DNA of 64,000 nt. Source: a virus. The notes beneath the pieces are model-generated. The model did no database searches, was not told where the DNA came from, and saw only the letters and a list, made by a program, of their open reading frames with translations. The translations under genes and the position numbers were made by a program. Where the stretch lies: positions 25,267-89,266 of the IMG/VR virus record IMGVR_UViG_3300042863_000147; one strand, 5' to 3'. How positions within the stretch are numbered: the stretch's first letter is position 1; each line of letters starts with the position of its first letter. Shown piece after piece: positions 12,770-62,461 of the stretch.

Positions 12770-15700
12770 ATGAACGAACGGCAAATGGATGCGGTGCTTC
12801 GAAAGAATTACCCTTTTACGGATTCTTCTAAAGCAGATAATGATGCTAAATTAAAAATTAAAAGTTTAGGGCAGGCTAATGCCTTGAATTCTTATAGGTC
12901 AGTAACTTATAATTTCACATTAGCTGCACTTAAAAAGAACTATTTAGATGATCCTACTGCATACAGAACTAGTGAATTAGATTTAATTATCTTAAAGTCT
13001 GGCGGAAAAGGAAATGCTACTCTAACAACCAGTGGTGGTGCAAATACTGACGGGATATATAAACAGGCTCGGTCTGATTTTGCAGCTAGTGATCCTAGAA
13101 GATCAGATTTAACGCCCGAACAAAAGAATGTACCATTGCGCGATTATGGCGGAGAATTAATAAACGGATTTAACACTGAGAGTCCTGGTCGATTTGACAT
13201 GTTTATTGAAAACGTTGAAGTTGATACGTTGATGTCTTTTACTGAGTCGAGCGGCGCAACATTACCTACACAGATTAAGTTTGAAGTTATCGAACCTTAC
13301 AGTGTTAATGGTTTTATCGAAGCCCTGCATGTCTCGGCAATTGCAGCAGGTTATCCTACTTACTTAGAAGCTAGCTTTGTTTTAAAAATGGAATTTTGGG
13401 GATACCCTGATAACGATCTTACTTCTTTTAAGGATCCTGAAAAGATTGAAAAGACAGAAAGATTTTTTCCTATTGGATTAACCGGAATAGAAGTAGATAT
13501 AAGTGAGAAAGGTACTCGATATCGATGCACTGCGGTTCCGTACAATGAGCGTGCGTTTGGAGAACCAAATGTAATTAAAAAGCCAATTAAAATGTCAGGT
13601 TTAACAATTAAAGAAATTTTAACTGACTTAATTAAAAATGTTAACGAACAAGTTAAGACATCTAACAAGGAAGGAAAAGTAGTTTCTCTTGGGAACAAGC
13701 ATAATACATATGCTATTAAATTTCCTTCTCGAGATGACACAGTTGGCTGGAAAGACACTCCTGAAAATAATATTGCTAGTTCGAAATTAGTAGAAATTCT
13801 AAAAGATAATGTGCTATATAAGATGGCCGATCCTGCTACTACTGAAAAAGCCACTGCTTATAAGAAAGACGGCAAAGCTCAGCCTAGCGCGAATCAACAA
13901 GCTAAAGAACCAGAAGCAATCAAATATACTCCGGGAAAGACTGTTGTTCAATTTTCAGAAAATATGAATATTCACGATGCAATTACATCAGTAATTCGAG
14001 ACAGTGAATATTGTAGAAACATTTTAAAAGATGTAAAAAAGAACATTGACGAATTTGGAATGATAGACTATTTCATGGTGAGGATTGAAACTAAAAATCT
14101 AAATGAAATGGACGAAACTACTAAGAAGCCTTTTCAGAATTTTACGTTTATTGTAAGTCCTTATAAATTGCACTACACAAGAATTCCTACCTATGGTCAA
14201 GAACAAATAGATGATACGCGATTGACAAAACTTTGCAATCGAGAATACAACTACATGTATACTGGTAATAATATCGATATAACAAGTTTTAAATTAAATT
14301 TTAATCATCTATATTTTGAAGCTGTTCCATCTTCGTTTGGAAATCAAGATACTCCGTCGGCAAAGACCGGTGCCGGACCAAACAACGGAGCAGCACCTAA
14401 GCAATCTGCAACTCCTACAGAAGTAGTTGAAAAACAGCAAGTTCCTACTTCTCCCACAAAAGTAGAACCAACACCGGTGCAATCTAATATTTCTAATGCC
14501 GGCCAACCACCTAACGATGCCTACAGTGTATTAGCAAGAAAGATGCACGATGCAATTGTTGATTCTAAAGCTAGCATGATTACCGGAGACATGGAGATTT
14601 TAGGAGACCCGTTTTATATAGCAACAGGGGGCGTGGGAAATTTTAACCCTAAACCAGACGGAAGAGGAAAAACAATAACAGGTGAAGTTGATCACCTAAC
14701 TGGTGAAGTATTAATAAGAATAAATTTTAGAAATCCTATAGATATAAATTCAGCTACCGGCATGATGGACTTTAGTCCTAAACTTGTACCGTTCAGTGGA
14801 GTGTATAGGATTATTAAAGCAACTAGTACATTTAAGAACGGTGAATTTAAACAACGATTAGAAATTTTAAGATTGCCTGGACAAATTTTAGATCTAAATG
14901 CTCAGGAAAGTGATCCTGCTGATAGAGTCATAACGGTACCTAACTCACTTAATCGTGTTTCCCCAGATACAACTAGAGCATTTAATCCTAGTCAAAGATT
15001 GGACTCTTCAACTGCATTGGAACAACTCAATCGAGGTCTTCCTAGTCCAGGATTACCAGGAGCACTAAGTAATTTTACAGCAGCTACAGGCGGTCTAGGC
15101 GGACAAGCTGGTGCATTGCTTATGCAGAATCCTGGGCGAGTTTTAAAAACAGGAGCATTAGCAGCGGGCTCATCTGTTATTGGACAAGCCCTTCCTACTG
15201 ATATATCTTCTAACATTAGGTTAAATTCTTCTGGACTTGCTAACATAAATCAAACAGGGTTAGGTTCAGCTGCTCTAATTGCTGTTGCGACAAACGTATT
15301 GACAGGAAACATTCCTGCCAAACGAGCAGTTACTACCGTTGCAGGGACGATTGCAGGAGCTGCTTTAGTAAATGCACTTAAAAAACCTAATGTTGGATCG
15401 GGCATAGGTGAAGGTGCAACTAATGTTCTGTCTAAAGCAGTAACTGATTCTCCTACTGCACAGGATATTAAATTTGGTACCACTATTAATCCATCTAAAA
15501 TTGCATCAGACACGGTTAATAGTGTAGTTGGCGCAACTAAAGAATTAGGTACCGCTGCAATAGGTGCAGTTAATAGCTTAGGAAAAGAAGTATCAGGTTT
15601 TGTTAAAGGTGTCGGAGAAAAAATATCTTCGTTCAACAGCAGCCCTGCTGATCCCAAAGCTATCGGAGCTCAGGTTGGCTTAGACGTTTCTAAGCTATCC

Positions 15701-22679: not shown

Positions 22680-25600
22680 ATGGCGGATATTAAAAAATCA
22701 GTTAATCTATTACCCGAGTATCTAAGAACTAGTAAGAATTCTAAATTTTTATCTAGTACAATTGATCAGCTTATTCAAACTCCGAGAGTTGAAAGAGTTG
22801 ATGGGTATGTTGGATCTAAACTAACGCCTAACTATAATCCTTCTACAGATTTTTATATTAAACAAGCGTCACTATTAAGACAAAATTATAGTTTAGAACC
22901 TGCCGCCATATTCAATGATCAAGCAGGCAACGTGACTGATGTAGTGTCGTATGACGATTTAATTAACGAGCTGTCAATTCAAGGAGCAAAGACTGACAAT
23001 TTAGATACTTTACTTAGATCAAAGTTCTATGCCTACGACCCATTAATTGACTGGGACAAAATAGTTAATTACACGGACTACTATTGGGTTCCGTTAGGAC
23101 CCGATGCTATTATTTTATTTGATGAAAATTTAGATGTCACCGATATTATAGGTAACCAGACTTACACAATGAGTAATGGTTATCCATTGTCTAATGGAAT
23201 GAAGATTGCATTTTTTGATAATACAATTCAAGCCGAATATAGGAGAAAAGAATTTATAGTAGAAGGAGTCGGTTCATCGATTAAATTACTTGATTTTTCA
23301 TTGTTGAGTTCAAATGACAGAATATCTCGAGTGTTTGATGAAGAGTTCGATTCGACTATTTTTGATAGTTACCCATTTGATAGTGATAGAAAGTTTCCTA
23401 TCACTCCAGATTACATCACTATTAATAGGTCAAGTAATGATTTAAACCCATGGTCGAAGTATAATAGATGGTTTCATAGAGATGTAATTCAAGCCACTGC
23501 AGAAATTAATAAAGTTCCAGTGATTTATCCGTTAGCGGCTAGAGCTCGACGACCTATTATTGAATTTAAGCCTAACATTCAGTTATTCAATTTTGGAAAA
23601 GTAGGCATCAGAGATGTCGATGTTATTGATGTGACTACTAAAGATGCCTTTAATGAAGTTGATGGCACGTATGGGTATTATGTTGATGGGGTGTTATTGC
23701 AAAAAGGACATCGTGTAATTTTTAATGCAGATTCTAATAACGATGTTAGAGGTCGCATATACGAAGTTAATTTTGATGTTACCGGCCCTGTTCCTGTACT
23801 AAGATTAGTCGTTCCTTCCGACAATCTTCCGTCTGAGCTAGATTCAGTGGGAGTAAATTTTGGTACAGATTATTACGGAACAAATTGGTTCTTTGACTCG
23901 TCGATAAATCAATGGAAATATGCACAACAACACAATGCAGTGAATCAGCCTCCGCTGTTTGATCTGTTCACGAATGACGGAATTAGTATTTCTAAGATCA
24001 CAGATGCTAGTAATTTTACAGGAAATCAAATTTTTGGTTATGAGGTAGGCACCGGAGTAGTTGATGAAGTTTTAGGATTTCCATTAAAATATAAAAACAA
24101 TATTAAAGTAGGAACAGGAAGTTTTCCTTTTAGAACATATTTTTTAACTGATGTTATTTCGATTATTTCTAATAATCAAAGTAGCAGTCTGTCTGCTTCT
24201 ACTACCTTTTTAAAATTAAATGATTCGTTAGTTAATATTTGGGTAGAGGCAGAAGATTATCAAATTCCTATAATTGAAGTTCAGACTATATCAGAATCTA
24301 CGTCTTCTCTAGTACTGACTTGTTTAGATAAACCTATTAACACTAATATTTCAGTTACTGCATCTGTTAATGATGTAATAGTTCCTGTGACAATCACTGC
24401 AACTCCATCTAGCGTTACAGTGAATACAGAAGATATTCTGCCAGCAGGCTCTACAATACAGTTAAAAATTGAAACAGATCAGTTGCCTAACAGCAACGGG
24501 TTTTATGAAAGTCCAGTGGGCCTTACAAAGAATCCACTAAATGAAATTATATCATCTATAACTCTTAGTGAGTTAGGTGATCATTTGTCTTCAATGACAG
24601 GAAAATTAACTGGATTTACAGGAAAGAATTTAAGGGATTTATCTAACTATACCAAATATGGATCTAGGCTAGTAGCTAACGCTAATCCTATTGTATTTTC
24701 ACAGATATTTTTAGGAAAGAAAGAACATAATGTAATTGATGCAATTAGACAAGCAGGTACGTTCTATGATCAATTTAAGATGAACTTTCTAAGATTACTT
24801 ACTACAGTGGATGATCAATTGTCCGCTGCGGATGCATTAGATGAAGTTTTAAAAACTATTAACAAAGCCAGAGATGTTAAGTCGCCGTATCAGAGATCTG
24901 ATATGTTAGGTTACGGTGATGATAAAATAGTAAGAACATTTACGGTTACGAGTAGAGGCAATGTAGAGTATCCTACTGGAATTGAATTTGATTTAACTAG
25001 ATTGAGTTTTAACTCTGTGTTAGTTTATCTAAACAGTGTGCAATTAATTGCCAATCGAGATTATACATTTGACTACATTAACGGTTCAGTTACACTACTG
25101 ACTGCATTAAACATAGATGATGTTATTTCTATTAATTATTATCCTAACACCCTAGGAACATATATACCTCCTACTCCTAGTAAATTAGGATTGTATCCAG
25201 CATATGTACCTGAGTTATTTACAGATACTTCTTATGTAACACCTTCGTTGTCTATTAGAGGACACGACGGAAGTATTATAAAGGCATACGGTGACTACCG
25301 AGATGCGATAATTCTTGAATATGAAACTAGAGTCTATAACAATATTAAAACACAGTATCGAAAAGAAGTATTCGACATCATCGGAATTCAACCTTCGGCA
25401 TTTAGAATGTCAAAGTATGATATTGATGACTTGAATAATATTCTAGTTAATGACTTTTCTAGGTGGTCTGGTATTAACAATATTGATGCATCTGCCAATA
25501 CAGTTTTTGATGAAGGAAATCCTTTTACTTGGAACTATAAAGGTAGCGTCGATAATGTATTAGATTCCGTTGTATCTGGGTACTGGAGAAGTTTGTTTAA

Positions 25601-51797: not shown

Positions 51798-51991
51798 TTA
51801 ATTTGCTCCAAATCTACACCCCTTATTGCTGCCTTTCCGTAGGACACTGCTCTTTTTATTTCTGCAATTGTTGGCGGTTTTGCTCCGGAGTTGAGCCCGG
51901 ATGCATTAATAAGAAATTGCACAGCTCTAGTTAGCAACTTTACTCTAAGTTCAAGAGTTTCAATTCTCTTAGATGTCTGATCATCTGCCAT
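51794..51991 (-). CDS. Small coiled-coil protein, unknown function
   Basis: 65 residues from ATG 51991, chosen because it overlaps the QueE stop as TGATG and has GGGG nearby upstream; four codons earlier another Met is possible. The protein begins MADDQTSKRIETLELRVKLL, a short leucine-patterned helix, then PPTIAEIKRAVSYGKAAIRG. Function unknown. Confidence 0.65.
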   Translation of the reverse strand: MADDQTSKRIETLELRVKLLTRAVQFLINASGLNSGAKPPTIAEIKRAVSYGKAAIRGVDLEQIK

Positions 51992-52854
51992 CAAGTACCC
52001 CACTCATTTTTAAATAACGGCACTTGCAATCTATCACTGTATCGCAATCCGGCTTTCATTGCCATGTCTGCTACAGTGCGATTGTTTAGTGCATAAACAC
52101 TTTCAACGCCGCCAACTGGCATTAGATAAACATGTCCTTTAAATCCTGACGCCCGATATTCGGCAACAGCACGTTCTGCATCGGCAAAGTCTTCCGGTGT
52201 AGCAATAACAAACTTTAAATATGTGTGTCCTATGTCCTCGTATGCTACAACAACTTCTGGTTTAATAGCATCTTCCCACGGCTCACCTGAGCAAGGTAGT
52301 TTAGCACTTACACTAAATGTTAGAGCGTTGTATCCTCGATCTTTTCTTCCTAGAGACCAGTTCAACAGGTATTGTCTAAACTCTTTTGTCAGACGCATTG
52401 TGCCATTAGTTTCAAAAGTAATTTCTTTGAGATCCTTCATGCAAGGCTGATTTAGGAGATCTGGATAAGCACGTTGCCAACCTAGTAAAGGTTCTCCACC
52501 TGTGATAACAAGGTGTTCATCACGCCATTCTTTAAACGGCAATGTATCGACTACTGCTTTAGCAAGGCCTTCAGTTTCGATCATTGGGCTTAGATCTTTA
52601 AATGCAGGATGCCAACTAGCATAACTGTCACAGCCTGTTCCAACTAAAGGCAGATCTTTGTAATCTTTATACGGAATGTGTTCGTGGATTATTGCAATAG
52701 ATTCTGCTTCCTTGCTTAGTTCGCCACGGGACATGCCAAATCCTTGGCAGGTAAAATTGCAACCGTAGGTGCGTAGAAAAACAGACGGGACGCCCATGTA
52801 GCGTCCTTCACCTTGTATGCTGTAAAACAGCTCTGATACTTTAATTTTGCTCAT
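51991..52854 (-). CDS. queE: QueE, 7-carboxy-7-deazaguanine synthase (radical SAM)
   Basis: 287 residues from ATG 52854, which has AGGA at ideal spacing. Diagnostic parts: ELFYSIQGEGRYMGVPSVFLR, LVITGGEPLL and the ETNGT motif. QueE makes the 7-deazaguanine core from 6-carboxy-tetrahydropterin. The cluster cysteines are unusual: Cys32 and Cys36 (CNFTC) are followed by an insertion, and the next candidate is Cys75 in GTGCDSYASW, not the compact CxxC. A near-perfect host promoter lies upstream. Together with the DpdA-like protein at 57.3-59.0 kb it points to 7-deazaguanine in phage DNA; cutting down host tRNA queuosine is an alternative. Confidence 0.93.
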   Translation of the reverse strand: MSKIKVSELFYSIQGEGRYMGVPSVFLRTYGCNFTCQGFGMSRGELSKEAESIAIIHEHIPYKDYKDLPLVGTGCDSYASWHPAFKDLSPMIETEGLAKAVVDTLPFKEWRDEHLVITGGEPLLGWQRAYPDLLNQPCMKDLKEITFETNGTMRLTKEFRQYLLNWSLGRKDRGYNALTFSVSAKLPCSGEPWEDAIKPEVVVAYEDIGHTYLKFVIATPEDFADAERAVAEYRASGFKGHVYLMPVGGVESVYALNNRTVADMAMKAGLRYSDRLQVPLFKNEWGT

Positions 52855-52881
52855 ATTGTTCCTAGGAAAGATCTTAAATAT

Positions 52882-52924: not shown

Positions 52925-53788
52925 ATGAATAATTTGAGAACACAAATTATCTGGATGCTCAACGACTACTGTACAGCCGAGTGTTCCTATTGTCCGATAA
53001 AATTTCGTGGTGGAGAATTACCTAGAGGGATATTAGATTATATGTCTGTAACAGGAAAACTTATTGATCATTACGAGTCCATTGGTAGAAAAATTGATTG
53101 GTCATTTAATGGGGGAGAACCACTTGACATGTTTGATTTTCCTATGATGCTAAAGTTATGTAAGGAACGAGGCGGCACAATTGATCTACACACAAATGGA
53201 GGAAAGTTATGGTTAGATTGGTGGGCAATTGAGCCACATGTTGATTCGTTACATTTAACGTACCACTATTGGCAAAATCCTAGTCTTGTACGATTTATTT
53301 TACAGGCATTTACCAAAGCTAACAAGTGTGTAGATATTATGGTTCCTATTAGACCAGATTATTTCGATGACGATTTAAAACGAGCATTGGATATAGAAAC
53401 AGAATTTGGCATAGTAGTTTCTAAAACTGTACTATATCGAGAAGCTGAACAATCATTGGGGATGTACAATTATACTGATCAACAACTAAGAATCATGCGA
53501 GGAGAAGAACTTGTACAGGAAAATGTACATCATCAAGAGACTACATTTGCAGAACGTTTCGAAGAAAAAATTATTGCAAGTCCTTCATTTACTGGAATGA
53601 AATGTAACGTAGGAATTGAAAAATTAGTAATTACTCATCTAGGGTGGGTAAGGGGAAGCAATTGTAATATTGGACAGTTTGGAAATATTTGGGACGGTAG
53701 CTTAGAATATCCAACAAGCCCGCTTACTTGTAATATGCTGGCTTGTATAGATGGTTCCGACCAACAAATTACTAAATTTAGTCAATAA
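52925..53788 (+). CDS. Radical SAM protein with SPASM-like C-terminal cysteines
   Basis: A 287-residue protein, the only plus-strand gene between 44 and 64 kb. The [4Fe-4S] motif CX3CX2C is at Cys16, Cys20 and Cys23. GGEP follows in WSFNGGEPLD. The C-terminal region has extra cysteines (MKCNVG, SNCNIG, LTCNMLAC) spaced like an auxiliary-cluster SPASM domain. Such enzymes modify peptides, proteins or cofactors. It is divergent from queE and overlaps the mazG-like gene convergently by 11 bases. The substrate is unknown; a link with the neighbouring modification genes is only suggested by position. Confidence 0.85.
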   Translation: MNNLRTQIIWMLNDYCTAECSYCPIKFRGGELPRGILDYMSVTGKLIDHYESIGRKIDWSFNGGEPLDMFDFPMMLKLCKERGGTIDLHTNGGKLWLDWWAIEPHVDSLHLTYHYWQNPSLVRFILQAFTKANKCVDIMVPIRPDYFDDDLKRALDIETEFGIVVSKTVLYREAEQSLGMYNYTDQQLRIMRGEELVQENVHHQETTFAERFEEKIIASPSFTGMKCNVGIEKLVITHLGWVRGSNCNIGQFGNIWDGSLEYPTSPLTCNMLACIDGSDQQITKFSQ

Positions 53789-54053
53789 AGATATTTGACC
53801 AACGTTTTAGTTTTTCGATCTTAGCAGCCTTTGCAGCTTCTAAGTGTTCTAACAATATTACATTCTTTTCCAGCATGATGTCAATCATTGCCAACATATC
53901 GCCTAATTCTTCTTCGAGGTGTTCTCGATTAGTTTTGGGCTTACCTGGCTTGAAGTTGTCAATGCCAAATCGACTGATCTTACTTACTGCTTGAATTACT
54001 TCTGCACATTCTTCTTGTAGAATGTCCATTACTTCTTTTGTTTTACTATCCAT
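53778..54053 (-). CDS. mazG: MazG-like nucleotide pyrophosphohydrolase
   Basis: A 91-residue protein of the MazG-like all-alpha NTP-PPase fold: EECAEVIQAVSKISRFG carries the EExxE-type metal motif, and LEEELGDMLAMID the second ExxD motif. Family members hydrolyse (d)NTPs to monophosphates and are frequent in marine T4-like phages. It could remodel nucleotide pools or clear unwanted dNTPs. Its start overlaps the cupin gene stop by 8 bases. Confidence 0.85.
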   Translation of the reverse strand: MDSKTKEVMDILQEECAEVIQAVSKISRFGIDNFKPGKPKTNREHLEEELGDMLAMIDIMLEKNVILLEHLEAAKAAKIEKLKRWSNIFID

Positions 54054-54507
54054 TATTTGCTCTATCAGTTAGGTATTTGTCGTTGTGGATCCATTTGTTA
54101 TCAACAAGGAATCCCCATTCTCTACGTTGCGGACCAGGCATGAACATTGTCCAGCAGTCTGTTCCGGCTTCAAGCTCGACACGGTGATAGCTATTAGCAC
54201 TGCAAATACGGAAGTGCCCAGGACCACGCCAATGCTGTGTCTCACCGATATTGGCACCTTGTGAATCAAAGTTAGGAGTCCATTCATAATAACCACCTTT
54301 AAGTATTAGAGTAGCGTAAGACCATGGATGATCATGCACATCATCGGGATCTGATTTAAGGAACTTGTGAAGAAACACATTGAAGGGGAAACGCTTTCTA
54401 TCTTTAAGAAACAGGTAGTAGCGTTCGAGATAAGGTTCATCATTTTGTCTGTCCATTACGATTCGTTTGCGGCCTACACGTTCTAGAAAGTTTAGAAACC
54501 ATTTCAC
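54046..54507 (-). CDS. Cupin-fold protein
   Basis: A 153-residue protein with a small cupin-like core: PDDVHDHPWSYATLILKGGYYEW supplies a HxH-type metal site and the first cupin strand motif. GPGHFRICSANSYHRVEL resembles motif 2 (PxxxxH). Cupins of this kind occur in aquatic phages near sugar or DNA-modification genes. It lies directly after the glycosyltransferase with a 4-base overlap, suggesting a related job; the reaction is unknown. Confidence 0.7.
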   Translation of the reverse strand: MKWFLNFLERVGRKRIVMDRQNDEPYLERYYLFLKDRKRFPFNVFLHKFLKSDPDDVHDHPWSYATLILKGGYYEWTPNFDSQGANIGETQHWRGPGHFRICSANSYHRVELEAGTDCWTMFMPGPQRREWGFLVDNKWIHNDKYLTDRANNG

Positions 54508-55580
54508 TTAATCATCTCCAATAGTTTATCTGCACTAAAGAATTGCTCTGTTAGATCCTTTGCCTGCTTGCGAACCTGCGGCAAACGTTTTTCATAATGT
54601 GTCATAGTAACAATAATGTGATGACACAATTCTTGTCTATGTTTCAAATAACTATTCCAGTCTTTGGTCCATTCGCTAGGATACTTAAATCCTTCGTAAT
54701 ACATTTCACTGTACGACAAACGATCCGGTACCATGGGGATAGCATCTACTAATGCACCTTCGTAGCAACTAATGCCCAATGTTTCTTGCAAGTTTGCACT
54801 AAACACAATCTTTGATTGACTCAGTAGAGTATGATATTCTTGTTTTGTTAATCGAGTATCCTGACATACTACAAATTCGTATTGCGGCAGATACTGCTTT
54901 AAATCACGGAATATCTCAACTTGCTTTTCTGGAGCAATACGATGTGGAAACAAGATAAGATCACGTTTAGGCATACCCTTATACATAGTTAATGTATCGT
55001 CCATATACTCCATAGGCCAACCTGTGCGTACAATCTTACCTTGCTCGATCATGGTAATTTTCCACTCATCGTCTACTGTTTCACTAAATGATTCAGCAAA
55101 CAACTCGATGTGAAAATCTGTGGCAAAGTAGTTGTGATCGATAGCATGAAAGAAGCTTTGTTCAGCATGTCTGACCCACGGAGCATCTCCAATAAGACGT
55201 CCTAGAAAGTCTTGAGGATCATAACTACCGGCATGCCATAGTGCATGAATAGTTACAGGAATGCCGAGAAGCCCGGCCATGTATTTGAGATTGATGATAC
55301 CAGGATGCCAAGCATCAGTAGCGATAAAGTGATCACCTGCGCGAATGGTTCCGTCGCAAAATAACCTACTGATCTGCTGAACCTGTGCTGACTTATAAAT
55401 GTTGGTACCACCAAAATTAAGGAAAGCACCAGGAGTAGTGGCATCAGGAATATCTTTAGGCCCAGAAATAACTTGAACATTGTGTCCTGCCTTTTTGAGT
55501 AGTTGAGGAACGTGTGATTTCCACTCGCCTGTGTAGCGAGTGGAAACAGCCTCTAAATCAATTAGAAAAACGTTCGCCAT
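54504..55580 (-). CDS. GT-B-type glycosyltransferase
   Basis: 358 residues from ATG 55580 (an upstream GTG at 55637 is less convincing). MANVFLIDLEAVSTRYTGEW begins the first Rossmann-like domain. The second has LILFPHRIAPEKQVEIFRDLK, VVCQDTRLTKQEYHTLLSQSKIVFSAN and ETLGISCYEGALVDAIPMVPD, the usual donor-binding pattern of GT-B enzymes. Targets could be phage DNA (as in T4), a virion protein or host surface. It lies in the same transcript as the DpdA-like gene, so glycosylation of a modified base is worth testing. Confidence 0.8.
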   Translation of the reverse strand: MANVFLIDLEAVSTRYTGEWKSHVPQLLKKAGHNVQVISGPKDIPDATTPGAFLNFGGTNIYKSAQVQQISRLFCDGTIRAGDHFIATDAWHPGIINLKYMAGLLGIPVTIHALWHAGSYDPQDFLGRLIGDAPWVRHAEQSFFHAIDHNYFATDFHIELFAESFSETVDDEWKITMIEQGKIVRTGWPMEYMDDTLTMYKGMPKRDLILFPHRIAPEKQVEIFRDLKQYLPQYEFVVCQDTRLTKQEYHTLLSQSKIVFSANLQETLGISCYEGALVDAIPMVPDRLSYSEMYYEGFKYPSEWTKDWNSYLKHRQELCHHIIVTMTHYEKRLPQVRKQAKDLTEQFFSADKLLEMIK

Positions 55581-55800
55581 TGTTTCGATTTTCGTAACGT
55601 GGGTTTTTTCCCTTGTATCCTTCACGTGGCTTTCCACGATTTGCGAAGTATCGGTACTCTTGAGTACGATACAGGTCCGCAGGGTTAAACTCTAAAAGAT
55701 TGAAGCGGCAGTGATCGAGCCACGCTTCCAAATCGTCGAAGATTTTAGAAACTTCCGGTTTCATGAAAAGAGTTTTTTGAATGTATTTTGGCTGTGCCAT
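55558..55800 (-). CDS. Small conserved phage protein, unknown function
   Basis: An 80-residue protein: MAQPKYIQKTLFMKPEVSKI, then FDDLEAWLDHCRFNLLEFNP and LYRTQEYRYFANRGKPREG, ending in a basic Asn/Arg-rich tail. The pattern recurs in aquatic T4-like phages. The glycosyltransferase start lies inside its last 23 bases. It could bind nucleic acid through the tail. Confidence 0.75.
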   Translation of the reverse strand: MAQPKYIQKTLFMKPEVSKIFDDLEAWLDHCRFNLLEFNPADLYRTQEYRYFANRGKPREGYKGKNPRYENRNNGERFSN

Positions 55801-55815
55801 TTTTGATTTACCTAA

Positions 55816-56202
55816 TTATAGGGTTGATGGAAATTTAATGAAGCAGCCATTCTCGCCGTCTTCACTTACGTCGATCCAGATCTCACGACCTGGATATCTT
55901 GCCGAAATGGTTCCGTGGAGATCACGGCTTATCATTTCGCAGGATTTGTGGTTGAGTTCGAGTGTGCCATCTGCGTAGCAATGCTCTAACCAACGCTTAA
56001 ACTGAATAAACTCAATATCACGATCATCGTGAAATACTTGAATATAGACTTTAAAATGGAAAATGTGACGGTGTGGAGTACCAAGGAAACTAACGTCATA
56101 CATGTCACCTGTAGCAAGTTTAGGATCTGTAGCCGCAGCCGGATACATATGAACACCTTCTTTACGAAAGGTTACCCAGATCATATTTAATTCGTTATTC
56201 AT
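55816..56202 (-). CDS. Possible T-fold (QueD/pterin synthase-like) protein
   Basis: A 128-residue protein. GTPHRHIFHFKVYIQV resembles the HxH metal site and following strand of 6-carboxy-tetrahydropterin synthase (QueD) and related T-fold enzymes. IEFIQFKRWLEH matches the position of their DfxxLK segment, and WIDVSEDGENG aligns with the Glu near the pterin site. The usual Cys before HGH is not seen, so activity is uncertain. If real, it would supply the QueE substrate. It may instead be only a conserved aquatic-phage protein of unknown role. Confidence 0.55.
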   Translation of the reverse strand: MNNELNMIWVTFRKEGVHMYPAAATDPKLATGDMYDVSFLGTPHRHIFHFKVYIQVFHDDRDIEFIQFKRWLEHCYADGTLELNHKSCEMISRDLHGTISARYPGREIWIDVSEDGENGCFIKFPSTL

Positions 56203-56372
56203 TCTTCTGCCTTAGGTTTTGCTGTTTTCTTTGCAGTTGGTTTTTCGGGCAAGTTGTCTTTCATCATATTATAGATTTCCCACAACTTCCAGTCAATGCT
56301 TTCGAGCAACTTGAATAACTTTTCTTCTGAACTCTGTTGATTTGCTTGTTTTGTAATTTTAGAATTGATCAT
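56199..56372 (-). CDS. 57-residue protein, unknown function
   Basis: A short gene starting at ATG 56372 and ending in a TGA that overlaps the next ATG (ATGA). Its own start overlaps the previous stop the same way. The protein starts MINSKITKQANQQSSEEKLF, continues LLESIDWKLWEIYNMM and has a Lys/Ala/Pro tail. The nested overlaps on both sides and the absence of any gap argue that it is translated. Confidence 0.75.
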   Translation of the reverse strand: MINSKITKQANQQSSEEKLFKLLESIDWKLWEIYNMMKDNLPEKPTAKKTAKPKAEE

Positions 56373-56881
56373 TTAATCACCGTGTCGTTTTTATATTGGT
56401 TCCAGTCTGTAAAGTTTTTACGATCCATTAGTGCGTGTAGACTGTGCGACCACACACCGGGATTAGTTGCTTTAAAATCTTTGTCGTCGATTTTAATCAT
56501 CGTATTATAGTTCCAAAGGCGAACATATGGAATTGGGACTCTTATCTGTGGAATAAAATTATCGTACTCGTTCAGTCCGCCTTCGTTGAATTCTTCAACT
56601 TCTTCCATAGGGATATCAAGACTGCAAAGATAGCCTTTGTCTAGGAAGAACATGATCATGTCTTCCCATTGTTTCCAAAGACTGCCTGCGCCGGGCTTGT
56701 AACTGTGATTTGCACCGAAGAAAATGTGCTCGCAACCTTGCAAGTTTAATGCGATATGTTCGACTGGTTGTAGTCCTGTAACAAACAGTGTTTTCATACC
56801 GTATGCAGGAGTATGCTCAACTTCAACACCAGTGAAGAAAATTACATCATCACTGACGCCTGTATCGTAATCACGCTTCAT
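56369..56881 (-). CDS. Conserved phage protein, unknown function
   Basis: 170 residues from ATG 56881 (open further upstream with a Leu-rich start that is probably not translated). Distinct motifs are DVIFFTGVEVEHTPAYGMKT, LFVTGLQPVEHI, CEHIFFGANHSYKPG and YVRLWNYNTMIKIDDKDF then NPGVWSHSLHAL. It is strongly patterned, so likely an enzyme or a well-folded protein, and recurs in aquatic T4-like phages. It is embedded in the DpdA-like operon with 4-base overlaps. I could not place it in a family. Confidence 0.75.
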   Translation of the reverse strand: MKRDYDTGVSDDVIFFTGVEVEHTPAYGMKTLFVTGLQPVEHIALNLQGCEHIFFGANHSYKPGAGSLWKQWEDMIMFFLDKGYLCSLDIPMEEVEEFNEGGLNEYDNFIPQIRVPIPYVRLWNYNTMIKIDDKDFKATNPGVWSHSLHALMDRKNFTDWNQYKNDTVIK

Positions 56882-57107
56882 CTTTTTTCTTACGTTTAGT
56901 TTTAGTAGTAGTAACTTTAACAGAATTTTCATACTCTGTCAATGCCTTTTGGACATCTTCGAGCAATGCTGCATCGTCCCAAACTAATTCGGTTTTTCCA
57001 TCTTCAAATGTTTTAACAATTAAATGACTTCCTTGTTGTATTTTGGGCCAACCTCCACTTTCTACATTTGGAGATAATTCTTCAGTTTTCTTTTTACGTG
57101 TTGCCAT
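56871..57107 (-). CDS. Small conserved phage protein, unknown function
   Basis: A 78-residue protein, basic at both ends (MATRKKKTEEL and TTTKTKRKKKDEA), with a compact core GSHLIVKTFEDGKTELVWDD then ALLEDVQKALTEYE. A strong AAGGAGT ribosome site precedes it. It overlaps the following gene by 11 bases. Nucleic-acid binding is possible from composition. Confidence 0.75.
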   Translation of the reverse strand: MATRKKKTEELSPNVESGGWPKIQQGSHLIVKTFEDGKTELVWDDAALLEDVQKALTEYENSVKVTTTKTKRKKKDEA

Positions 57108-57315: not shown

Positions 57316-58950
57316 TTATTCACCTAAATTACCTTCTTCGAGCTCTCTTAGCTTGTCGTCATCTGGATTTTCTAAATCTACTTCTTCTGATTTAGATACC
57401 TCTTCGAACGCAAACAATCCGTTGAATGTATTTTGAGCAGGCCCGCCTTGCAAACGAGCACCTTCTAAACTACGCAAGAATGGGCCTGCTTGCTCAATCA
57501 TAGCAAATGCTTCTGCTTTAGTTGTGGTATTAAACAAGTCTTCAATAAACGAACTAAAATAAAGGATGTTACGAGGAACCCAATCTGAATACTCGTCACT
57601 CATGTCTGAGCCTTTAACTTTCTTCCATTGTTTCCAAGTTAACTTACCTGCAACTTTAGCAATCTCGATATCCATTAACTGTTGGGCACGTTGAACAGCA
57701 ACAATATGGCATTCAACATTATGTCCCATCATTAATGCATAGGCAAAGCTGTCCCAACTTGTTCTGTTAGGAATCTTACCTAGTTTGTTTAGTCTAGGAA
57801 CAACTTGATAGTGATCTGGATTCAAATGATCAAACTTGGCACCGTTTAATTCTGCATCAGTTTTACGCTCGCCTAAGTCATAGTAGGCAATGTCGGCCAT
57901 TGTTAATCTGCGACCGATTGACGATTCGAATGGGAACGGGATGTCTGATCCTGATAGTGCTTTGTTATCTGGTGCCTTGTCCATAATAACACTCCACCTT
58001 TTTGGCGTGTGGACTGCGTTTGTGTAGACAAGTCCGTGCGCGGTTGCGATGAACGGTGAGGCGCAGTCAAAAGATACGGTAAGCTCTTCATTGATATGTT
58101 TCCTAATTTGTCGTTGAATTAAAGTCAAGTAACAACTCCAGTCAAGTTGTGCTGTACCCAAGAAGTGGATCCAGTTTTTGCCCTTCAGCAAACCATCTTC
58201 TCTCAAGGTCATTAGACGCTTGAGAGTAATATCCATCTTGCACATGTTAGCACCACCAAAGGCCCAACCTTCTGCTTCACGCCCTGCATACTTGCCTGCT
58301 GGATCGCTAAATTCCTTTACACCGTCATACCACTTTTCAGCAGTGTCCCAGTCCCCGCCCTGTAGAACATTAAGCCATTTAGTTTGACCCAATCTGTTCA
58401 TTAAGAAGTAATCGTTGTTGTATCGAGTCTTATCTAAACAGTCATCGAATGTCTTCAATCCAGTTTTGGGGCTGTGAATATGATCACATGCCCATGTCGG
58501 AACGTCTAACATCATTGACCAGTCGGCAGTTACTTCCAACCACTCGAGAATCTTCTGACGAGTCTTAGTGGCTTCCTTGCCTTCAAAGTCTAGCCAATCA
58601 AACTTAAGAACACCCTTACCAATCTGGTATCCACCGGAGTCGCCTAGAATCATTGTATTGTTACGATCACGTTGTTGGATCATAGACTCTTGTGTAAGAC
58701 TCTTTTGTAGATCTAATTGTGCATGACCTGCTGAATACAAACCATACTTGTAGGTAAAGTAGCCTTGTTCCGGATTTAGAAAATTCATTCCTTCAATACC
58801 ACGATCAAATCCTGCAGGAATACGATCTGTTGGTACGAATTCACCTAATCGCTGTTTAGCAACATAGGTGCTGTAGAACGAACTAATAGCTGGCAAATAT
58901 ACCGCATAGTCCTTCTGTAGTGGTGTTAAATTAACTTGTTGTTTGCTCAT
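57316..58950 (-). CDS. dpdA: DpdA-like DNA guanine transglycosylase (TGT fold)
   Basis: A 544-residue protein carrying the tRNA-guanine transglycosylase active-site order: GDSGGYQIG (Asp104), a MMLDVPTW segment (Asp149), NVLQGGDWD (about 194-201), WAFGGANM (229-236), HFLGTAQLDW (262-271) and SFDCASPFIATAHG with nucleophile-position Asp295. Phage TGT relatives called DpdA exchange guanine in DNA for 7-deazaguanine bases, protecting against restriction. The QueE gene at 52 kb supports this. It follows gp45 by 12 bases and heads a tightly overlapped run of genes. A tRNA-specific TGT is possible but less likely, since this protein is large and lacks a recognisable zinc-site set. Confidence 0.85.
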   Translation of the reverse strand: MSKQQVNLTPLQKDYAVYLPAISSFYSTYVAKQRLGEFVPTDRIPAGFDRGIEGMNFLNPEQGYFTYKYGLYSAGHAQLDLQKSLTQESMIQQRDRNNTMILGDSGGYQIGKGVLKFDWLDFEGKEATKTRQKILEWLEVTADWSMMLDVPTWACDHIHSPKTGLKTFDDCLDKTRYNNDYFLMNRLGQTKWLNVLQGGDWDTAEKWYDGVKEFSDPAGKYAGREAEGWAFGGANMCKMDITLKRLMTLREDGLLKGKNWIHFLGTAQLDWSCYLTLIQRQIRKHINEELTVSFDCASPFIATAHGLVYTNAVHTPKRWSVIMDKAPDNKALSGSDIPFPFESSIGRRLTMADIAYYDLGERKTDAELNGAKFDHLNPDHYQVVPRLNKLGKIPNRTSWDSFAYALMMGHNVECHIVAVQRAQQLMDIEIAKVAGKLTWKQWKKVKGSDMSDEYSDWVPRNILYFSSFIEDLFNTTTKAEAFAMIEQAGPFLRSLEGARLQGGPAQNTFNGLFAFEEVSKSEEVDLENPDDDKLRELEEGNLGE

Positions 58951-58962
58951 CTTTGCTCAATA

Positions 58963-59697
58963 TTATGTCTGTGCAGGAATGATGTACTTGTAAGTAGCAA
59001 GACCGCTGTCAAGTGTAATCTGTAGAGCACCTTCGTTACTTAAACTCATCATAGTATTGTTAACATCTGATGCTTTAAGAATCGCAAGCACTGGGGCAAC
59101 AGGCCATGTCCATCCTTTATTTAGGTTACCAGTGACACCGGTGGCAAAAATAAATTCACCACCGTGACTTGCTTGGTCACCGAATGTAAATTTCAACTTG
59201 TCACCGTCTGTCTTGGCCAAGAATGTTGTGTGCTCATTGTTAGCGGCTGCTTGAAAAGCAAAACGCTGAACACTGGCTAGACTTGGAGCAACTTCAACAT
59301 CCCACTTAACACCACGGAACTTAACAGTCTTTAACTTTTCGTTAATAATCTCAGTGTTCATAAAGCGGTAATCGTTCTTAAAGTCGCCACCTTTGTTTTC
59401 AAAGTGCAAACCTGTTGGAATTTCTTCACCGTTGCGATCTTGTTTAACAACTTCGATCTTTGCATCTTCTTTGTATTCTGGGCAATCTAACAAATACTTT
59501 AATTTGTTCATTTGCGGCATACCAAAAATGCCAGTCATGTCTGCCTGCGGGCTAGCAGTTTCACCATACATAATAACTGTGCGGTCATCAGCCATACTGT
59601 CAATGGTTGTCTTTTTGTCGTCGCCTGTAATTTTAACGATGTTCAGGAAGCCCAGGCTATGTGTGTGGCTAACGATATCTTGTAGAATGTCTTTCAT
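58963..59697 (-). CDS. 45: Sliding clamp gp45
   Basis: A 244-residue DNA polymerase processivity clamp (T4: 228). Typical parts include HTHSLGFLNIVKITGDD, MYGETASPQADMTGIFGMP and the final GLATYKYIIPAQ. As a trimer it tethers gp43 and also activates gp55-dependent late transcription. A host-type promoter at 59715-59743 and AAAAGGAA ribosome site precede it. Unlike T4, genes 44, 62 and regA do not lie between 45 and 43. Confidence 0.93.
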   Translation of the reverse strand: MKDILQDIVSHTHSLGFLNIVKITGDDKKTTIDSMADDRTVIMYGETASPQADMTGIFGMPQMNKLKYLLDCPEYKEDAKIEVVKQDRNGEEIPTGLHFENKGGDFKNDYRFMNTEIINEKLKTVKFRGVKWDVEVAPSLASVQRFAFQAAANNEHTTFLAKTDGDKLKFTFGDQASHGGEFIFATGVTGNLNKGWTWPVAPVLAILKASDVNNTMMSLSNEGALQITLDSGLATYKYIIPAQT

Positions 59698-59752: not shown

Positions 59753-62425
59753 TCAATCAAAGGAAAATAATTTGCCAAAGGTGTTGTCTTGGGTAGTGGA
59801 TTCTAAATCCCAGTCCAGCACACCGATAAGGTTGTCTAGTTTGTTGTTAATGATAGCAGTTTCCATCTCACTGTGATCAAATGGAAGGTCTTGGAACCAT
59901 TTAGGTAATCTCATCTCATCAACTGGATAAGCAATAGATGTGTAACCTAGTGGATTATCTCTAACCTTGCAGACAATAACCTTCATACCATCAACAATGC
60001 CCATTGAGTATTTGTCACCGTTCATACGCTTTAGCGTGTTCCAGTTGATAGCAGCACGGACATGTCCTGGCATATTTGCCTTACCTTGTTTAGCTTCCTT
60101 AGCTTGATACTCGGTAATGTTGTTAGCACGTTTCGGACTGCCCTTTTCCCAACCTGGTCTGGCTTTGAATTCAGTCCGGAACGCACTGATCATTTCAAGA
60201 ATCTCTTGTTCCTCTGCACCATTTAGTACTTTGGTAAGAACTTCTTCTAGAAACTTTTGCATAAATTCCGGAGTATCACTACGCTTGAGATCCAGGCCCA
60301 TGGCCTTAATCTTACCTGGCTTACCGTCTGTGTCCTGTCTCTTACCGTCTTTATCGTAATACAATACTGCATAACGCTTCTTGGTAATGAACAGGCCTTT
60401 AACAGCAACAATTTCTCGACCACCTTTGATAACTTCGCCTCGACTCTTTGGGCAGTGAAATGCATCCAACATGAACTGCGGGAATGTTGCATTTACGCCT
60501 TCGGCAATTTGATCATACAGCTGAATAACAACATCTCTATCCCAAGGGATCAGCTTCTTGTTAATGTCAGTCTTTAGCGTATTGTAAGCTGAGAAGTAGC
60601 ACGAATCAGTATCACCATAGATAATGCTTTTACCTACGTGGTCAAACTCGCCGGTAATCATTTCATTGACTTTACCAGCCATGTGCTTGGCAATCTGGCG
60701 ACCTACTAGAGTAGTTGATTGTCCGATACGCTTGTCAAAGAATCTGCAACCTGCATTAAGAATAGCACCATACAAACTGTTCAAGTTAATCTTCTTAACC
60801 AACTGTCGCTTGTCCCAGTACTCTTCTTCAATCTTGTTACCTGCTTCAATAGCTGCCTTGAGCTTCTTTTGCATATCTTTACGTTCAGCATACCAACGCT
60901 TTAACAGTCCGGGGATAATACCTTCATGTTCATAGGTAAAGATAGTGCCGTTTGCGCTCAACATCCAAGGTTGATTACTGTCAAAGATTAACTTATATGC
61001 TTCGGCTGCACTCATGATATCACTTTGATTGTTTTCCCAGTCGACAATTATTTCAAATGCTTTATCCTGTCGCATAACTGCTTCGTATTCTAGACTACCA
61101 AACATACCTTCCCATGATGCTGCAAATGATTTCTTATGCACTAGCATTTGTTCATTAATATGTTGATCAGTTCGGTCTTGACGCAACTGTCCGACGATAG
61201 TTTCCGGACCCATATTTAACGCACGAATAGCTGAAGGATACAGTGAGTTAATGTCAATAGATCCAATCCAGTCATGCAACCCTTTTTTAGGATATGCAAC
61301 ATAGGCACCTGCTGCCTGATTGTTAGCATCTTCGTCACGCTTTGCACGATTGGGCACAATGAGACCACGGTGGTGGGCTTCATTTACAATAGCCTGTTCA
61401 GTTACAGCAACAGCGCCCATTGTGGTCTGTAATAGCACTGTGCATTCATGCGCCAGTGTGTTAGCAAGGTCAATAAACTTTAGTTTCTTATCTAGCTTGT
61501 CCAACAGTGCAGTATCCTGTCTGTTGTATTCAATGAACTTACGGAAGTCATTGTTGTACAATTGATCAAGTGTGCCTTCATAATGAGTCTTGCTCTCGCC
61601 TACTTCCATTTCTCCAATGGCATCCAATCGGTAAGTGTGTCTCTCTTCATATGTGTATTTGCGGTACAGCTCGAGACTGTCCAGATGAACACGACCAACC
61701 AGATCATAAGTAACAGCCGCTTTTCCATATTTCTCGTACTCTCTCTTCTTGGGAAATTGACCCCACAGACAGAATCTACGAGTGTCTTCTTTGCTCAGTG
61801 CTTTAATTACTCGATTGACAGTGTAGGGAATATCATAACCTTCACTGTTCCAACCGCTAAGAATGTCAGCATCTTGAATAAGATCCAAGAACGCATCTAA
61901 CATTTCTGCTTCAGTTTCAAATAAGTGTGTGTTAGGGAAGTCCTTGACCAGTTCCGTTGCCTGCTCCATTGTCAGGGTCTTTGGAGGAACAGCAAAGCAG
62001 ACCAGTGTATCTAACCATTGTAGGTGAACAGCAATCGATGTAATTGGCATAAACGCATCCTCTGGGGTGCTGTAGCCTCTTTCAGGATCGAAGTCCACCT
62101 CGATGTCGAAAAACGCCACATTAAGTTTAGGCGGTTCGTGATTGAGATAATTTTCTTCTAGTGTTTTGAATACTGTATTGATATCAGATTCGTATAGCTT
62201 GTGACTGCTGTGAATCCGTTGTTCTTTCTGAAAATCCTTATAGGATCTAGTAACAACTTTGCTTAGGTTTTCACCGTAAATTGACTTGTATTTGCCCCTT
62301 TGATCGGGGTAATAAAATGTGTATCTTGCAGGAAACTCCTGGAAGATTCTGCCTTTCTTTGGATCACGCTCAACGACATGCACGATGTCCTTGTCGCGAT
62401 CCCACATGGCATCGACGTAGCTCAT
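59753..62425 (-). CDS. 43: DNA polymerase gp43 (family B)
   Basis: 890 residues from ATG 62425, chosen for its AAGGAG ribosome site; T4 gp43 has 898. Exonuclease motif FFDIEVD has Asp107 and Glu109. Polymerase motif A is SIDINSLYPSAIRALNM, motif B KINLNSLYGAILNAG and motif C YGDTDSCYF. The 3'-5' exonuclease and palm are complete, so it is an active proofreading replicase. It lies downstream of the SpeD and membrane-protein genes and just upstream of gp45. Confidence 0.97.
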   Translation of the reverse strand: MSYVDAMWDRDKDIVHVVERDPKKGRIFQEFPARYTFYYPDQRGKYKSIYGENLSKVVTRSYKDFQKEQRIHSSHKLYESDINTVFKTLEENYLNHEPPKLNVAFFDIEVDFDPERGYSTPEDAFMPITSIAVHLQWLDTLVCFAVPPKTLTMEQATELVKDFPNTHLFETEAEMLDAFLDLIQDADILSGWNSEGYDIPYTVNRVIKALSKEDTRRFCLWGQFPKKREYEKYGKAAVTYDLVGRVHLDSLELYRKYTYEERHTYRLDAIGEMEVGESKTHYEGTLDQLYNNDFRKFIEYNRQDTALLDKLDKKLKFIDLANTLAHECTVLLQTTMGAVAVTEQAIVNEAHHRGLIVPNRAKRDEDANNQAAGAYVAYPKKGLHDWIGSIDINSLYPSAIRALNMGPETIVGQLRQDRTDQHINEQMLVHKKSFAASWEGMFGSLEYEAVMRQDKAFEIIVDWENNQSDIMSAAEAYKLIFDSNQPWMLSANGTIFTYEHEGIIPGLLKRWYAERKDMQKKLKAAIEAGNKIEEEYWDKRQLVKKINLNSLYGAILNAGCRFFDKRIGQSTTLVGRQIAKHMAGKVNEMITGEFDHVGKSIIYGDTDSCYFSAYNTLKTDINKKLIPWDRDVVIQLYDQIAEGVNATFPQFMLDAFHCPKSRGEVIKGGREIVAVKGLFITKKRYAVLYYDKDGKRQDTDGKPGKIKAMGLDLKRSDTPEFMQKFLEEVLTKVLNGAEEQEILEMISAFRTEFKARPGWEKGSPKRANNITEYQAKEAKQGKANMPGHVRAAINWNTLKRMNGDKYSMGIVDGMKVIVCKVRDNPLGYTSIAYPVDEMRLPKWFQDLPFDHSEMETAIINNKLDNLIGVLDWDLESTTQDNTFGKLFSFD

Positions 62426-62461
62426 ATAGTTCTCCTTACCGCTTATGGCCGGCAACCTTCT

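Follow-up and report, generated by a model that had tools for sequence, protein, structure and literature searches.

Does a phage glycosyltransferase act on 7-deazaguanine? A GT4-type gene conserved beside transglycosylase and 7-deazaguanine genes

The window studied here is a stretch of 64,000 nucleotides from a virus, positions 25,267 to 89,266 of IMG/VR record IMGVR_UViG_3300042863_000147; the source record has 89,266 bases and is perhaps a fragment, so the window is one part of it. Its minus strand carries a predicted glycosyltransferase (GT) gene close to a gene for a DpdA-like transglycosylase and a possible T-fold gene, which raises the question whether a 7-deazaguanine of the phage DNA receives a sugar. 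The first-pass annotation had named a sugar on a modified G as one option and a virion or surface glycan as another. The first is now much better supported than the second, with an acceptor that we infer from the tie of the GT to 7-deazaguanine genes in every lineage examined, its survival when the transglycosylase is exchanged and the sugar-nucleotide genes that join it in several lineages. With transglycosylase and 7-deazaguanine synthesis genes both present, the locus is very probably a 7-deazaguanine DNA modification cassette, and the folds, motifs and linkage make it likely that the GT acts on 7-deazaguanine which is destined for, or already in, the phage DNA.

Linkage was examined in IMG/VR loci. 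Seeding with the window GT gave 91 relatives, of which the best 80 were used; at 90% GT identity these 80 loci were deduplicated to 45 clusters, and loci with too little flank were dropped. Every cluster with 5 kb or more of upstream sequence (37 of 37) has DpdA or a DpdA2-type tRNA-guanine transglycosylase (TGT) together with the T-fold gene, and every cluster with 8 kb or more of downstream sequence (26 of 26) has QueE. Counted by locus, with at least 4 kb upstream, 54 of 55 had the window-type DpdA and 1 of 55 the DpdA2-type TGT. The reverse seedings agree with this. Among the best 80 of at least 594 relatives of the window DpdA, all 51 loci that extend 3 kb or more downstream have the GT. 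When a distant DpdA was the seed (the 80 best of at least 598 relatives), the GT was found in all 29 loci extending 8 kb or more, in 38 of 39 extending 5 kb or more and in 47 of 52 extending 3 kb or more, and in the loci missing it the sequence ends soon after DpdA. The DpdA2-type TGT gave 61 loci, and all 55 with at least 2 kb downstream had the GT family and the T-fold gene. Loci from the four seedings overlap through shared contigs, so deduplicated counts are preferable, and the linkage test is the deduplicated GT-seeded loci alone. The gene-content counts below (n=37 window-type, n=14 DpdA2-type) include DpdA- and TGT-seeded loci and allow no linkage test; they come from clustering of open reading frames (ORFs) over 251 loci, with family representatives then checked against Pfam. 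The cassette of DpdA, an unknown gene, T-fold gene, small gene, GT and QueE is nearly invariant in the relatives, and its conservation as a whole far exceeds chance.

Such linkage could be the shared descent of one operon, with an unrelated role of the GT, and most of the IMG/VR loci do come from one phage group. Shared descent does not explain all of it. In 69 loci whose DpdA is less than 60% identical to that of the window, the GT has a median identity of 70.0% to the window GT; in 77 loci with DpdA at least 60% identical, the median is 70.6%. The GT is equally close whether DpdA is similar or divergent, which means that it was retained through exchanges of the transglycosylase. Loci L024 and L253-255 pair the window-type GT with a DpdA2-type TGT. 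Other transglycosylases, which are only distantly related, accompany the GT family in PA5oct/Paride, ACP17, Xanthomonas phage X1 and cyanophage-like contigs, and the named phages bearing this family belong to at least six lineages (PA5oct/Paride, Phosso, ACP17, X1, BUCT-ZZ01 and PhiXhv/Ep032). This recurrence with different transglycosylase families, and the different families of sugar-nucleotide genes that joined different cassettes, make descent alone a very improbable explanation.

There were 19 phage records with the GT. Six were opened (PA5oct, Phosso, ACP17, X1, PhiXhv-15 and Ep032), 10 further PA5oct relatives and a second ACP17 record were assigned by matching coordinates, and the remaining two are PhiXhv-12 and PhiXhv-16. 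Scans of viral contigs with the X1, PA5oct and ACP17 GT proteins gave no further relatives, and neither did a scan of genome contigs with the window GT. In PA5oct the DpdA and GT genes share one base and are followed by the T-fold gene and QueE. In Xanthomonas phage PhiXhv and in Ep032 the GT lies two genes after GAT-QueC, and a DpdA-like gene is found elsewhere in PhiXhv-15; the PhiXhv gene annotated as 'GlmS' is actually this GAT-QueC.

These neighbourhoods bear on the other option, in which the GT would glycosylate a virion protein or the host surface and have no more than an operon in common with the DNA-modification genes. GT4 acceptors are very diverse, and the fold matches described below include BshA, glycogen synthase and cell-wall GTs, which would suit such a role. 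Against it, no lineage opened has structural genes as GT neighbours; the neighbours are genes of replication and of 7-deazaguanine. The GT also remains when DpdA is exchanged, and in PA5oct the GT and DpdA genes have one base in common. We regard a virion or surface target as unlikely.

Of the deduplicated cassettes, 18 of the 37 window-type ones and 11 of the 14 DpdA2-type ones have sugar-nucleotide genes, a second GT not being counted. One recurring family is a GalE-like epimerase (PF01370, 1.2e-49). A protein of the UDP-glucose dehydrogenase family (PF00984, 3.4e-24) lies directly 3' of the GT in some cassettes, and pairs of Gfo/Idh (3.2e-8) and zinc alcohol dehydrogenase (ADH_N, 5.8e-9) genes follow the distant DpdA. 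In the deduplicated DpdA2-type loci, the GT type called GTb was accompanied by GalE in 11 of 11, and the window-type GT had no GalE in 3 of 3, as if GTs and sugar donors were matched to each other. A second GT4-like protein (Pfam 6e-4 to 3e-5, below cut-off) stands directly before the DpdA2-type gene in 13 of the 14 cassettes of this type (L269:8634-10001 with relatives; L009:9376-10719) and might add a second sugar. PA5oct has its sole epimerase gene in the GT cassette (E 6e-7); in BUCT-ZZ01 the sole epimerase is about 42 kb from the GT, not adjoining. A phosphoribosyltransferase (Pfam 6.7e-14) was present in 20 of 37 deduplicated window-type loci.

In PhiXhv the GT adjoins genes for a PIG-L deacetylase and a Gfo/Idh protein, and GNAT and Leu/Phe transferase genes lie close by. 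The cluster, at about 4.5-13.8 kb of L010 (PV764602.1, 93838-118560), holds GAT-QueC, PIG-L deacetylase, GT, Gfo/Idh, a double GNAT and a Leu/Phe-tRNA transferase homologue. From its gene content it looks like a pathway for an amino sugar on 7-deazaguanine which would then be acylated or aminoacylated.

The genes of the window locus are as follows, in reading order.

59753-62455, minus strand: PolB-like gene, first in the order.
58963-59697, minus strand: clamp-like gene, after the PolB-like gene.
57316-58950, minus strand: DpdA-like DNA guanine transglycosylase (base exchange), by predicted TGT fold and motifs; then two small ORFs.
56369-56932, minus strand: x56369, conserved gene with no assigned function, in 37 of 37 deduplicated window-type loci.
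56268-56296, minus strand: promoter-like site TTGACT-17-TATAAT (11/12), before the T-fold/GT half.
55816-56202, minus strand: T-fold (QueD-related) protein, phrog_17812; HxH present, QueD catalytic Cys position not kept.
55558-55800, minus strand: x55558, conserved 80-aa ORF, in 35 of 37 window-type and 0 of 14 DpdA2-type deduplicated loci.
54504-55580 (ORF 54504-55637), minus strand: GT4-type GT-B glycosyltransferase, by predicted fold and motifs.
54046-54507, minus strand: cupin, accessory, phrog_4786 'cysteine dioxygenase' (E 1.5e-39); H58, H60 and H108 invariant.
53778-54053, minus strand: MazG-like pyrophosphohydrolase, accessory (PF03819, 28.9 bits, over cut-off).
52925-53788, plus strand: radical SAM protein, accessory (PF04055, 3.9e-5, below cut-off), in 9 of 37 deduplicated window-type loci.
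51991-52857 (likely ATG), minus strand: QueE, 7-carboxy-7-deazaguanine synthase (phrog_2076, E 2e-50).

The GT probably starts at the internal ATG at 55580, because its homologues begin there. Its stop overlaps the cupin ORF by 4 nt; the first-pass annotation had noticed the overlap. The cupin itself lies outside the interval 54504-56202 given there for the two enzymes, which holds the GT, the 80-aa ORF at 55558-55800 and the T-fold gene. The same annotation had placed the GT, cupin, TGT-like and T-fold genes in one transcript. All are on the minus strand, as required; a single transcript is less certain, since the promoter-like site (TTGACT-17-TATAAT, 56296-56268) separates the DpdA half from the T-fold/GT half. 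The pattern recurs in only part of the close relatives: a score of at least 11 was reached by 19 of 127 window-type upstream regions, compared with 13 of 486 random windows. A perfect sigma-70-type consensus, TTGACA-16-TATAAT, is located at 52909-52882 on the minus strand, directly before QueE. The phage ThyA was rightly taken as a thymidylate synthase (NF002497, E 1.4e-107, over cut-off).

Pfam and NCBIfam scans gave no curated match for the window GT, DpdA, T-fold protein, cupin and x56369, and PDB sequence-profile searches with the GT, T-fold, DpdA, DpdA2-type TGT and cupin proteins gave nothing significant; therefore the folds were obtained by structure prediction. The GT model, made from 46 sequences (pLDDT 85.6, pTM 0.85), aligned with 6kih at Z 23.1 and with the BshA structure 3mbo at Z 23.0 (rmsd 3.1-3.2 over 300-315 residues); sucrose-phosphate synthase and BshA are its fold matches at Z 23. 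E-x7-E is the motif of retaining enzymes, and an Arg and a Lys hold the donor diphosphate. E266-x7-E274, R214 and K219 are invariant in the 46 close sequences; R214 and K219 are kept in 6 of 6 distant homologues, and E266 and E274 are each replaced by Asp in one. By this model the window GT is a GT-B, GT4-type enzyme with an intact retaining motif. Its X1 homologue matches PF00534 (8e-12, over cut-off), the BUCT homologue passes both PF00534 and PF13692, and the ACP17 homologue is the nearest viral structure to the window model (TM 0.87).

T4 DNA alpha- and beta-glucosyltransferases are phage GT-B enzymes that decorate a modified base against host recognition, and the cassette GT can be likened to them. 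They differ in the acceptor, which is a pyrimidine (hydroxymethylcytosine). Pfam, PHROG and PDB profile searches gave no sequence match between them and the window GT, and the viral fold search lists a cyanophage 'DNA alpha-GT' no higher than rank 49. The closest GT4 folds (Z 22-23) are BshA and MshA, which act with the deacetylases BshB and MshB: GlcNAc is transferred and then deacetylated, on the small-molecule acceptors malate and inositol phosphate. PhiXhv likewise pairs its GT with a PIG-L deacetylase. BshA and MshA differ in these small-molecule acceptors and have 10-12% identity to the window GT.

The window DpdA was modelled with AlphaFold from 37 relatives (pLDDT 81.4, pTM 0.81). All 50 matches listed by Foldseek were bacterial TGTs (best E 4.2e-8), and VIA-align against the Thermotoga maritima TGT gave Z 19.6 with rmsd 4.7 over 303 residues. 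D104-SGG, HFLG and D295 (SFD, in the place of the TGT nucleophile) are invariant in the 37 sequences, and the D-SGG and SFD motifs also occur in the PA5oct, ACP17, X1 and BUCT transglycosylases. On the predicted model, the gene at 57316-58950 has a true transglycosylase fold with intact catalytic Asp motifs, which bears out its earlier description as TGT-like: the barrel is there (Z 19.6) and the catalytic Asp pair is present. No phage DpdA or TGT gene in this analysis scores over the cut-off of the Pfam TGT model (PF01702), and the PhiXhv DpdA is assigned only by a weak match (E 0.005) and an IADSGGFQ motif.

A TGT fold would also suit a tRNA target: the transglycosylase would act on tRNA, and the product of the GT would be a glycosylated queuosine-like base, as in eukaryotes; glycosylated queuosine exists in animal tRNA, where a sugar is carried on 7-deazaguanine in a nucleic acid, but in tRNA and not DNA. 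The zinc site CxCxxC...H is a feature of tRNA TGT. It has no trace in the sequence of the window DpdA, in which C296 is the sole invariant Cys among 37 sequences; the motif is visible in the DpdA-like protein of PhiXhv. The cassette adjoins PolB and clamp-like genes. Window DpdA and DpdA2-like TGTs are remotely related (hhalign P 95, E 2.6e-8), and phage nt-1 was not among the tblastn matches of window DpdA, which we did not place in the DpdA2 subfamily. The ACP17 TGT is homologous to nt-1 YP_008125322 (35.7% identity), and the same family is found in X1 and BUCT-ZZ01. Hutinet 2019 (PMC6884629) gives YP_008125322 the name DpdA2 and reports dPreQ0 in nt-1 DNA, so a second GT-linked transglycosylase family is related to the DpdA2 of a phage with dPreQ0 in its DNA. 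Together with the missing zinc motif and the replication neighbours, this makes a tRNA target quite unlikely.

A relative of the window DpdA with about 30% identity is present in Vibrio phage 2.275.O (MG592671.1). The cluster around it has genes annotated as QueF, COG1738 transporter (the family of YhhQ), queuosine biosynthesis protein and FolE; a QueE profile also matches, and the queuosine biosynthesis gene matches the GAT-QueC profile. Between DpdA and the QueF-annotated gene, a gene at 13741-14853 (L171) matches amidoligase_2 just under the cut-off (E 1.8e-4), and may be a candidate ligase acting on 7-deazaguanine.

The possible T-fold gene of the first-pass annotation is the gene at 55816-56202 on the minus strand, and by profile it is indeed QueD-related: profile-profile comparison with phage QueD gave P 77 and E 2e-5 over the C-terminal 44 columns. 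QueD, the 6-carboxytetrahydropterin synthase, has a catalytic Cys before its HxH zinc motif. H44-R-H46 is invariant in the T-fold protein and no Cys is conserved upstream of HxH, by which it does not qualify as QueD; ACP17 and BUCT hold QueD in addition to it. T-fold and FolE genes occur in four phages in which no GT homologue was detected (RHph_I1_18, Ahp1, D479 and Bakedbeans). In Ahp1 and D479 the next larger gene beside the T-fold gene looks TGT-like by reading, with PHROG matches only to unnamed families. Because the T-fold gene occurs without the GT in the four phages, with a TGT-like neighbour in two, its protein probably takes part in base insertion, with the GT as a probable added step. 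In Vibrio phage Bakedbeans (L007:11227-12378) the T-fold is fused to the C-terminus of a 260-aa domain with no assigned function.

The presence of FolE and T-fold genes on either side of the GT could also mean a pterin glycoside: FolE and the PTPS-like T-fold protein would make a pterin that the GT glycosylates, as cyanobacterial UDP-glucose:tetrahydrobiopterin glucosyltransferase does. The Synechococcus pterin GT 5zer was at rank 24 of the fold matches, which is unremarkable for a GT4 fold. Neither QueE nor DpdA is an enzyme of pterins, and the same four phages have T-fold and FolE without a GT homologue, so we give the pterin product a very low probability.

For the other genes of the cassette, homologues of x56369 are found directly before the ACP17 TGT (blastp E 2.5e-10) and in L313. 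Five NCBIfam models for QueE match the window QueE with E of 5e-10 or lower, and none of these matches reaches its cut-off; window-like QueE was present in 174 of 50,697 phage records. The radical SAM gene, between MazG and QueE, has a CX3CX2C motif, and its viperin-like and QueE-like scores are weak and below cut-off. The cupin, proposed earlier as a partner in the modification, turned out to be accessory. It was present in 28 of 37 window-type and only 2 of 14 DpdA2-type deduplicated loci, and its family is found in 83 phage records. We rejected it as a core part after the neighbourhoods in BcepNazgul, Cr30 and Aziz (3 of the 83 opened), in which many genes are unnamed, showed no named 7-deazaguanine gene. 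Its PDB sequence-profile match to cysteine dioxygenase (E 0.99) is at chance level; a role as putative sugar isomerase is possible.

Several points weigh against a sugar on 7-deazaguanine. Many of the loci counted in IMG/VR belong to one phage group of common descent, and the counts cover the best 80 of the 91, at least 594 and at least 598 relatives. The window GT has no curated family match (no glycosyltransferase Pfam family at E 1, and none in NCBIfam), and by reading, the ORFs of the window include no sugar-nucleotide gene. The Phosso DpdA is about 170 kb from the GT. DpdA2-like genes are present in 70 phage records, 4 of which (ACP17 twice, BUCT and X1) are known with the GT, and therefore the sugar is not needed for DpdA2 function. 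The literature searched reports no measured modified base for any GT-bearing phage. QueC is absent from the window record (89 kb, maybe a fragment) and was not found in four complete GT-bearing phages (PA5oct, Phosso, ACP17 and BUCT-ZZ01). Therefore the group carrying the sugar would be 7-carboxy, or a cyano or aminomethyl group made by the host. A 'PAPS reductase' of X1, considered as QueC, is not QueC.

A mechanism can be proposed as follows. FolE (in relatives), QueE and host enzymes would make the 7-deazaguanine base, and DpdA, aided by the T-fold protein, would swap it for guanine in the phage DNA. Before or after insertion, the GT4 enzyme would move a sugar from an NDP-sugar onto the 7-substituent, whose handle may be carboxy, cyano, amide or aminomethyl. 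Relatives would vary the sugar through added epimerase, dehydrogenase or deacetylase genes, and the phosphoribosyltransferase might salvage the released guanine. We infer that DNA with the glycosylated base would go unrecognised by restriction and other DNA-targeting defences.

This arrangement is matched in part with the phage 7-deazaguanine systems described in Hutinet 2019 (PMC6884629), which share a TGT-fold DpdA, QueE/FolE/QueD genes and a replication neighbourhood. Unlike those systems, the GT and sugar-nucleotide genes are fixed cassette parts here. The paper reports dG+, dADG, dPreQ0 and dPreQ1; these carry no sugar, and the word stem 'glycos' is absent from its accessible text. No glycosylated base is reported in the accessible parts of a jumbo-phage review or of the papers on Paride and PA5oct. 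7-deazaguanine DNA and glycosylated pyrimidines are each known, and their combination was not found in the literature searched, with most subscription journals outside the search. That also holds for glycosylated 7-deazaguanine in DNA as such. Further derivatives described by Cui 2023 are reportedly methyl, formyl, carboxy and unsubstituted, none with a sugar. To our knowledge, the known glycosylated phage bases are all built on pyrimidines.

Taken as a whole, we lean towards glycosylated 7-deazaguanine as a widespread and so far unreported class of DNA hypermodification with interchangeable sugars, in phages of six host genera (Pseudomonas, Sinorhizobium, Acidovorax, Xanthomonas, Erwinia and Synechococcus) and in metagenomic phages. 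The same inclination covers the sugars, which would be uronic, epimerised, oxidised and amino sugars, with perhaps a second sugar in cyanophage-like operons and an acylated amino sugar in PhiXhv. Several phages that carry the cassette are cultured, namely Paride and PA5oct (both on P. aeruginosa PAO1), ACP17, X1 and BUCT-ZZ01, and the proposal is directly testable in them. A sugar on 7-deazaguanine, if true, would be a new base chemistry and would explain a conserved cassette of unknown genes; it would also bear on the evasion of restriction and CRISPR, and on why some phage DNA resists cutting, editing and sequencing.

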